A DNA stretch of 64,000 nucleotides from Arsenophonus endosymbiont of Aleurodicus dispersus. Lineage in GTDB: Bacteria > Pseudomonadota > Gammaproteobacteria > Enterobacterales > Enterobacteriaceae. The position numbers and the translations under genes were made by a program. Below, piece after piece: positions 10,417 to 63,941 of the stretch; the first letter of the stretch is position 1; every line of letters begins with the position of its first letter. The notes below the pieces were generated by a model. It made no database searches. It had not been told where the DNA came from and was given only the letters and a program-made list of their open reading frames with translations. The stretch is from assembly GCF_900343015.1 (NCBI RefSeq), contig NZ_LR025108.1:558001-622000 (forward strand). The letters are read 5' to 3'.

Positions 10417-10653
10417 GCTCTATTCCTGATGAATTAGTTTTAATACTGTTAGTTTAACACGCTAACACGTTCTTGAATATGAAAATAAAACCTTTGTAAT
10501 TATGATTTTGCCAAACTATTTAAGAAATTATACTGTAATTTTGTTAATTTTTTAAAAGTTTAGTTATTAAATTGTATAATATTACATTTATCTAAAATTA
10601 TGTAATAACAAATTGTTTTATTTCCTATTATGTTCTTATCCATAATTTAGTAT

Positions 10654-10925
10654 ATGGATGCCATTTAAGTTAGAGGTGCACGCACTCATAATGTTAAAAA
10701 TATAAATTTAATTATTCTTAGCGATAAATTAATTGTTATTACTGGGTTAATTTAATAGGTTCGTTCAATCTTTTTAAAGGGTATAGGCCGTTATGTTGAG
10801 TCACTATCTGACTATGGTCAGCAGTTTTTATCTTTAATGGTATTATGTTGATCATATTGAAGGGCTTTCAATCGCCATCAATTTGCTCGTATTGGTGAGC
10901 CTGTACTTATCACGATTTAACCAGA
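10654..10925 (+). pseudogene. uvrA: uvrA 5' remnant (excision repair ATPase)
   Basis: UvrA is the damage-sensing ABC ATPase of nucleotide excision repair. From ATG 10654 the translation reads MDAI, stop, VRGARTHN, then NINLIILSDKLIVITGL and RYVESLSDYGQQFLSLM, then FARIGEPVL, against E. coli MDKIEVRGARTHNLKNINL...KLIVVTGL...RYVESLSAYARQFLSLM...FARVGEPRC. The Walker A loop (GLSGSGKSS) is gone, several stops and shifts interrupt the frame, and fewer than 100 of some 940 codons remain. Position and divergent orientation next to ssb match E. coli. Confidence 0.85.
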
Positions 10926-62442: not shown

Positions 62443-62584
62443 AGATTAGCTATAGCCTCTGGTTTGAACCTAGCCAGAAGCATATCAAAAATAGTCATTA
62501 ATGTCTGTTTAAAAGATAATAATTTCTCGATCTAAATATATAGATTTAATTTTATGTGAAATAAAACAATCAATATGCCTAACT

Positions 62585-62733
62585 CTCATTATTAAAGCAA
62601 CCGGGTATTGAATTAAAAGGTTAAGCACTACTTGGAATAGTTAAGCAGCTTTTAGAAAAAATGCTGGTAGTTATGGCTGTTGAATTATTCAATAGTGCGA
62701 TGAAATCATTAGTTGATATTAGTATTAAAGTTT
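62585..62733 (+). pseudogene. dgkA: dgkA remnant (diacylglycerol kinase)
   Basis: DgkA recycles diacylglycerol to phosphatidic acid. Between plsB and lexA, its E. coli position, the plus strand reads TLIIKATGY, stop, IKRLSTTWNS, stop, AAFRKNAG, then in another frame MLVVMAVELFNSAMKSLVDI, against E. coli TRIIKAAGYSWKGLRAAWINEAAFRQEG and MLVMIVEILNSAIEAVVD. The first membrane helix and the tail are deleted. Confidence 0.82.
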
Positions 62734-62740
62734 AACATAA

Positions 62741-62756
62741 CTGGATATAATTACAG
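62741..62756 (+). promoter_or_regulatory. Degenerate SOS (LexA) box upstream of lexA
   Basis: CTGG-ATATAATT-ACAG lies 36 bases before the lexA start, against the consensus CTGT-N8-ACAG. One half-site base is changed. E. coli lexA has two boxes; I see only this one. Binding is probably weakened but not abolished. Confidence 0.5.
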
Positions 62757-62791: not shown

Positions 62792-63412
62792 ATGAAAAAA
62801 TTAACTTTGAGGCAGAAGCAGGTCTATGACATAGTGCGTGAACACATTTCTAAAACAGGCATACCTCCTACCCGCGCTGAAATTGCATCAATTTTAGGTT
62901 TTCGTTCATCAAATGCAGCAGAGGAACATTTGAAAGCTTTAGCGCGTAAAGGTGTTATAGAAATTATTTCTGGCGCTTCTCGCGGTATCCGGTTACTGCA
63001 AAAAGAAAATAAGAATGCTGGATTACCACTTATTGGTTGTATGGTGGCAGGAGAACCCTTACTGGCTCAAGAGCATATAGAAAGCTATTATCAAATTGAT
63101 GCGACTACTTTTATACCTAGCGCCGATTTTTTATTGCGACTTAATGGTATTGCAATGACAAATATTGGTATTATAGATGGAGATTTACTTGCTGTACATA
63201 AAACTAAGAAGGTAAAGAATGGACAAATTGTTGTTGCGCGTCTTGATGACGAAGTAATTATTAAACGCTTTAAACAAGTGGGCAGTAAAGTAGAATTAAT
63301 TGCTGAAAATTTTGAATTGAAGCCAATTATTGTCGATTTGCGGACAGAAAGCTTAATTATTGAAGGACTAGCTGTTGGTATTATTCGCAATTTTAAATTT
63401 AATTCAGTTTAA
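62792..63412 (+). CDS. lexA: LexA repressor with catalytic Ser replaced by Ala
   Basis: LexA represses SOS genes and, in normal form, cuts itself at Ala-Gly when RecA filaments form. The 206-residue protein has the winged helix-turn-helix ([20 protein letters not shown], residues 25-44) and the C-terminal dimer/latent protease domain. The cleavage site is kept (VAGEP, Ala86-Gly87) and so is the catalytic lysine (Lys158 in VIIKRF, E. coli Lys156). The serine nucleophile of GMSM (E. coli Ser119) is Ala121 in GIAM, codon GCA at 63152-63154. The same change made in E. coli LexA blocks self-cleavage. The fold is otherwise conserved, so it is predicted to repress permanently. Confidence 0.96.
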
Positions 63413-63539: not shown

Positions 63540-63941
63540 TCGCATGGTAAGCACAATCCATAGCATTCAATAATGGATAGCAGTTTCTACTTATTGGCAA
63601 TTGTTTTCAGCAACGCTGCCGCAACTGTCACAAATTAGCATAACATAAGTATGGTTGAGATCTGAAAAGAATGACAAATAACATAGCTATTAATTAATTA
63701 TATCTTGTGAATGAATAAACCCTGGTTCTAAGATAAATACCAGACCAGGATAAATAGTTGGCGGTTTGGCTTTAGGTTCTTGTTCTGTTCTTTCTTCTAA
63801 GTAGATCATAAGCGGTAATAGTTGGGCTGCTATAAGGCGCAATATTACTTCTCTTTGTGTAGTTAAAGTTAAACGTACATGACGCGCTAGGCACATTTTC
63901 TTTGCCTGGAACAGGATTTTATCCTTATTTTGCTTTGTCAT
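63540..63941 (-). pseudogene. zur: zur remnant (zinc uptake repressor)
   Basis: Zur is the Fur-family repressor of zinc import. From the ATG at 63941 the first 83 codons read ILFQAKKMCLARHVRLTLTT, REVILRLIAAQ, and KAKPPTIYPGLVFILEPGFI (E. coli QAKPPTVYRALDFLLEQGFV), then stop. Downstream and in other frames ICDSCGSVAENNC, stop, VETAIHY matches E. coli ICDRCGAVKEECAEGVEDIMH, the zinc-binding part. Frame breaks plus the Tyr-Arg to Tyr-Pro change in the recognition helix show it is dead. The position near lexA fits E. coli. Confidence 0.88.

Follow-up and report, generated by a model that had tools for sequence, protein, structure and literature searches.

What is left of the SOS switch when its repressor no longer has the residue with which it cuts itself? 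The question is raised by lexA in ARAD, a genome-reduced Arsenophonus that is a symbiont in the whitefly Aleurodicus dispersus (663,125 bp, one contig). The word 'lexA' is absent from the main text of PMC6167482. A sequence-only reading of the window, the whole stretch of 64,000 nucleotides that was analysed and to which coordinates refer unless the genome is named, held that LexA has lost its catalytic serine and kept everything else, and that the SOS switch is thereby fixed in the off state. The gene and the parts of it that bear on this are:

62792..63412, + strand: lexA, an intact ORF of 206 aa, predicted to be unable to self-cleave
62792..62998, + strand: DNA-binding domain, codons 1-69 (Pfam PF01726, 90.9 bits)
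63038..63052, + strand: scissile loop, codons 83-87, Cys-Met-Val-Ala-Gly (Arg/Gln-Val-Ala-Ala-Gly in the 29 relatives)
63152..63154, + strand: codon 121, GCA (Ala), aligned to the catalytic serine, E. coli Ser119
63257..63265, + strand: codons 156-158, Ile-Ile-Lys, with the two residues ahead of Lys altered (Thr154-Val155-Lys156 in E. coli)

The protein is a full-length match to TIGR00498 (242.6 bits over residues 1-201, cut-off 110.95), with the Pfam domains LexA_DNA_bind and Peptidase_S24, and its best PDB match, 1jhh, also has alanine at position 119. A LexA match is present in 43 of the 59 relative genomes searched, and the best 30 places, ARAD included, were aligned. All 29 other proteins have serine at the position of codon 121 and ARAD alone has alanine, so that the loss of the catalytic serine is upheld. 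The nearest codon to the ARAD GCA is the TCA of the Arsenophonus genome G003, one base different. A DNA pattern for serine-to-alanine in LexA context, which covers Ala only and was run without a parallel Ser control pattern, occurs in one of the 394 genomes of the order, namely ARAD itself. The Ser-Lys dyad of self-cleaving S24 LexA is thus reduced to its lysine (codon 63263-63265). E. coli LexA S119A undergoes neither base-mediated nor RecA-mediated self-cleavage and keeps SOS constitutively repressed (PMC4980697). Because the nucleophile is gone, and by analogy with the E. coli mutant, ARAD LexA would be unable to cut itself, as had been anticipated. Supply of the cleavage activity by another S24 protease was considered and rejected: the LexA query matches a single place in the ARAD genome, so that this search gave no further protease of the LexA or UmuD type.

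The serine is not the only part of the cleavage machinery to have changed. ARAD breaks six of the 88 columns that are invariant in the 29 other LexAs (V82M, A83V, V115L, S119A, V155I and M24I, in E. coli numbering), where six relatives treated likewise break none or one. Five of the six (V82, A83, V115, S119 and V155) belong to the cleavage machinery, and the cleavage region has the further changes R81C, M118I and T154I, the last of which is also present in the relatives L022, L236 and L237. The cleavage loop reads GCMVAG where relatives have GRVAAG: the scissile Ala-Gly (63047-63052) is retained and the three residues preceding it are altered, two of which, V82 and A83, do not vary among the 29 relatives. 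In E. coli LexA, cleavage is prevented by substitutions at V82, A84 or G85. Within the cleavage-loop and active-site segments, 5 of the 20 invariant positions are altered, compared with 1 of 68 in the rest of the protein (Fisher p = 0.002), these segments having been fixed after the changes had been seen and drawn from the cleavage-site region and pocket residues given in PMC10020695. When the reference is conservation among four Arsenophonus alone, the protease site shows no significant excess (9/34 vs 25/152, p = 0.22). The scissile loop of ARAD is eroding. The assertion that all but the serine is kept therefore holds for Ala-Gly, for the lysine and for five DNA contacts, and fails for the cleavage machinery, where five of the six changes at invariant positions lie.

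Those five contacts, S39, N41, A42, E44 and E45 of the recognition helix (LexA DNA-contact residues as named in PMC3091678), are all unchanged in ARAD. When the ARAD branch is given its own omega in a codon model, lexA has a value of 0.227 (background 0.063) with omega = 1 rejected (p = 4.7e-8); under the other topology it is 0.261 (p = 0.0024 against omega = 1). The 95% intervals, from a likelihood grid, are about 0.14-0.38 and about 0.15-0.54, respectively. ARAD-branch values for intact genes are 0.216 for plsB (background 0.077), 0.231 for ruvA (0.093) and 0.053 for recA (0.008). At 0.158, the ARAD branch is longer for lexA than for plsB (0.096), ruvA (0.085) or recA (0.067). Selection on ARAD lexA is purifying on average, not neutral, and relaxed about as much as in other retained genes, omega being a branch average to which a late loss of function would give the same value. 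Judging from its conservation, the protein is expected to fold, dimerise and bind its own operator, and, because selection has kept it intact on average, its most likely role is still that of a plain repressor.

What there is for it to repress depends on the operators, for which the relevant features are:

62741..62756, + strand: lexA operator CTGGATATAATTACAG, 14.6 bits, the best LexA site in the window and the highest of the five places that model R1 gives in the genome
9877..10416, - strand: ssb, intact, 179 aa, with the protein start as in the ssb beside the G003 operator
10417..10653, no strand assigned: ssb-uvrA intergenic region, with an 18-base gap relative to G003
10654..10925, + strand: uvrA remnant with a stop at the fifth codon (MDAI*), its extent as in the sequence-only reading

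Operator model R1 was built from 43 LexA operators of relatives and run on four genomes. In G003, G004 and G005 pooled, its sites precede lexA, recA, recN, uvrB, ruvA, ssb/uvrA, umuD, sulA and a YdjM-like gene (apart from LexA and RecA, these names come from reading the proteins), and there are R1 sites in these genomes at no SOS gene as well, including L193, L207, L212, L214 and L216. In ARAD, R1 gives five places, of 14.6 (lexA), 12.6, 11.9, 9.6 and 8.6 bits; scoring there covered 150 of the 711 first-look candidates, and a weak site in another part of the genome could have escaped notice. Among the candidates scored, the one good operator is that of lexA itself.

The lexA operator has a PWM score of 21.5, against 10.3 for the runner-up among 127,962 window positions. 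Compared with CTGTATATAATTACAG in G003 it has fallen only from 23.3, and its core has a single change, CTGT to CTGG, a form also seen in lexA or recA operators of relatives. Because it shares bases with a -10-like TATAAT, conservation of the promoter may be what has preserved it. (Upstream of lexA, the four Arsenophonus sequences L002-L005 have one strong operator, and most other aligned relatives have two.) The fate of the other operators is different. That of recA, CTGGATGGTTATACAG in four Arsenophonus and ATGTATATTTATACAG before the recA pseudogene of G003, is ATGGATACTTATCCAG in ARAD (PWM 20.0 to 1.0), and that of ruvA, CTGGATATAAATCCAG in G005, is CTTAATATAAATTAAG (21.1 to -2.9), the CTG/CAG cores of both being lost. 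Taken alone, the recA operator has not diverged significantly more than its flanks (4/16 vs 12/112, p = 0.12, in a comparison with three of the four relatives having that operator). Between ssb and uvrA the gap relative to G003 takes one half of the operator, and the other half is altered. Among the canonical regulon operators (lexA, recA, ruvA and uvrA/ssb) ARAD keeps that of lexA only. Both recA and ruvA are intact, and together with ssb they are predicted from the state of these sites to be uncoupled from LexA and expressed without SOS control. The idea of a switch fixed in the off state is then not supported, since with the recA and ruvA operators destroyed and that of ssb/uvrA cut, the genes would not be held off.

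The accompanying proposal of stepwise SOS dismantling survives in part. The uvrA remnant is confirmed, and for uvrB nothing in ARAD exceeds the family cut-off, two weak partial matches being all there is. No Y-family polymerase was found in ARAD and the same is true of six of nine Arsenophonus genomes; its lack is a weak sign of anything particular to ARAD, as G005, with lexA and recA intact, has none either. The part that fails concerns dinF, whose absence had been counted as a further step. In the three Arsenophonus regions examined (G003, G005 and G006) zur directly follows lexA without dinF, and the missing dinF is rejected as a sign peculiar to ARAD. Decay beside ARAD lexA consists instead of:

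62567..62665, + strand: dgkA remnant with stop codons (tblastn), between plsB and lexA
63576..63941, - strand: zur, broken, an 83-aa open frame followed by stops, downstream of lexA

The open frame of dgkA is 124 aa in G006 and 87 aa in G005.

The account we consider probable is that ARAD LexA is an uncleavable self-repressor whose regulon has been detached in cis, and that it belongs to a seemingly recurrent pattern. LexA would no longer be inactivated by DNA damage, making SOS induction impossible; the regulon would have been detached through loss of the recA and ruvA operator cores and the deletion that cuts the ssb/uvrA operator; and what remained would be a one-gene loop, an uncleavable repressor on its own promoter. 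Against this account, a repressor that recognisably targets only itself has no obvious use.

An alternative is that LexA and its regulon both lost their function recently and that the ORF has simply not had time to break, the serine-to-alanine change being one hit of several in a decaying protein. On such a view the lack of any recognisable regulon beyond lexA, the length of the ARAD lexA branch (0.158) and the broken state of the adjoining dgkA and zur would be as expected, as would the lexA pseudogenes of the reduced genomes G530 and G442 and the frameshifted lexA of G006. However, omega = 1 is rejected, and selection is relaxed to a degree comparable with that in clearly retained genes; the DNA contacts and the lexA operator are kept while the changes at invariant positions cluster at the protease site; and a similar pattern is present in two other genomes with omega well under 1. 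We regard recent loss of function as unlikely, if deserving of serious attention.

Less likely again, and in our judgement improbable, is that the uncleavable LexA controls other genes through divergent operators and is itself controlled in some other way, as proposed for Synechocystis (PMC3091678, PMC7567884). Purifying selection in spite of an invisible SOS regulon would be accounted for, and the second-best R1 place, with 12.6 bits, lies at genome 622092-622107, just past the window. Nothing but pseudogene remnants, next to the broken zur, follows that site, and a regulon gene there is rejected; the 11.9-bit site at genome position 324974 is within an ORF read as folC. The exact motif CTGTN8ACAG occurs five times in the ARAD genome among the matches listed, four times within ORFs and once with a score below zero; with at most one mismatch there are, among the matches listed, 136 as against 91 for the backward control. 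No convincing operator other than that of lexA was found among the 150 of 711 candidates scored, and with the recognition-helix contacts unaltered, a new specificity is not expected. A sequencing or assembly error at codon 121 is hardly credible, for although the difference from G003 is a single base (TCA to GCA) in a metagenome-assembled genome, the published coverage is 1,698x (PMC6167482, Table 1) and the four further changes at invariant protease positions, plus the operator changes elsewhere, fit a real change.

The account of an uncleavable self-repressor can be set beside the state of the circuit in other Arsenophonus. Both lexA and recA are present in G001, G004 and G005. In G003 (taken as ARAF, from a related whitefly) the LexA serine is intact and several SOS operators remain, and recA is a pseudogene with four stops within the main match (L071, L072; G003:C7:233104-234050), in agreement with the listing of recA as an ARAD-specific cluster in PMC6167482. 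SOS in G003 is therefore broken on the RecA side, unlike in ARAD. In G006 lexA is frameshifted and a recA match was not found; neither gene was found in G002 and G008 (0.8-0.9 Mb); G007 (72% complete) has recA and gave no lexA match. The Arsenophonus of Ceratovacuna japonica is reported to be without recA, lexA, umuCD and uvrABC (PMC9672956). Since Arsenophonus genomes differ in their lexA/recA state, the circuit has been broken at different points, and one genus displays several ways to disable one circuit: at the LexA active site, in recA, by a frameshift in lexA and by loss of both genes.

A lexA match is present in 275 of the 392 family genomes searched, and six of those with a match are smaller than 1.7 Mb. 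Of these six, G530 and G442 have pseudogenes, and ARAD, G512, G480 and G465 have full-length ORFs. The LexA of G465 (1.6 Mb) keeps A84, G85, S119 and K156. That of G512 (834,734-bp contig; L239) keeps the serine and has Thr-Asn for Ala-Gly with a 5-residue deletion in the loop, and that of G480 (1.2 Mb; L237) keeps the serine and has Thr-Asp-Lys-Gly for Val-Ala-Ala-Gly. A cleavage-essential residue is therefore lost in three of the four full-length ORFs below 1.7 Mb, by three different lesions. When six further full-length family proteins are added to the 30 already aligned, A84, G85, S119 and K156 are all present in 33 of the 36, and the proteins without the full set come from the three smallest genomes, a link between genome size and lesion that was drawn after the fact. 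The five DNA contacts are complete in 35 of the 36 (G512 5/5, G480 4/5). The omega values, 0.11 for G512 and 0.15 for G480, both differ from 1 and are rough, coming from long branches and hand-set trees. The lexA operator of G512 is still strong (26.1); in G480 no operator is left, the best score in its locus being 1.0.

The LexAs of G512 and G480 would be expected to be uncleavable as well. In the LexA tree G512 groups with L022, L023 and L236, away from Arsenophonus; G480 is near Arsenophonus with modest support (0.754), and its lesion is unlike that of ARAD, whose closest relatives are intact. Loss of LexA cleavage in reduced genomes looks like a repeated event. Whether it is a recurrent, selectively tolerated or favoured stage of genome reduction is a broader matter, which we put forward tentatively as somewhat short of an even chance. 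The sequence of steps proposed with it is equally provisional: the switch may first become uninducible (by loss of the serine, of Ala-Gly or of recA), with selection retaining the protein as a permanent repressor, after which the repair operators would be lost and lexA would go last. Should a wider sample bear out the convergence, regulatory circuits in shrinking genomes would be dismantled in order, the inducible step before repressor binding, and this is testable from sequence.

One of the closest known systems is E. coli LexA S119A, which has the same domain architecture, and ARAD provides its natural counterpart in an Enterobacterales insect symbiont. E. coli with this LexA has no fitness defect in the absence of antibiotics (PMC4980697), so that the ARAD change could have been fixed cheaply in a protected host environment. 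Unlike the engineered mutant, the ARAD change is natural, is accompanied by extra changes in the scissile loop and stands in a genome where those surviving SOS genes that were examined have lost their operators. Natural absence of the catalytic serine has a precedent in the LexA of Synechocystis sp. PCC 6803, which is considered uncleavable (PMC3091678, PMC7567884). There serine is replaced by Asp and Ala-Gly by Gly-Gly, the genes controlled are not SOS genes and the host is free-living. ARAD differs in that Ala-Gly is retained, the contact residues are unaltered and the recognisable regulon is down to lexA.

A pattern scan of species genomes gave at least 116 stretches, among them eight full-length LexA-like proteins with serine-to-alanine; 90 match the C-terminal part only (mostly UmuD-like by reading) and 18 have no match. 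ARAD LexA is accordingly not unique among bacteria, Synechocystis and the eight listed proteins also being without the catalytic serine. The eight, full-length like ARAD LexA, are from Weissella confusa, Oxalobacter, Treponema, Clostridiales, Oscillospiraceae and gammaproteobacterial MAGs. By reading, seven of them are also without Ala-Gly, and the Treponema protein seems to keep it. [In three assemblies of Weissella confusa (L120, L170 and L177) the LexA-like protein has alanine as nucleophile and no Ala-Gly. UmuD-like proteins with a natural serine-to-alanine change recur in Chitinophagaceae, relatives of Arthrobacter and Synechococcus/Cyanobium (within L073-L188), and at L125:3023, L144:3096 and L113:4587 a UmuC-like polymerase gene, as read from its sequence, follows soon after.] In the open-licence literature searched, no insect symbiont was described as having an uncleavable LexA. 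A natural uncleavable LexA is known from Synechocystis, and what is new is the loss of cleavage-essential residues through three different lesions in small genomes of one family.
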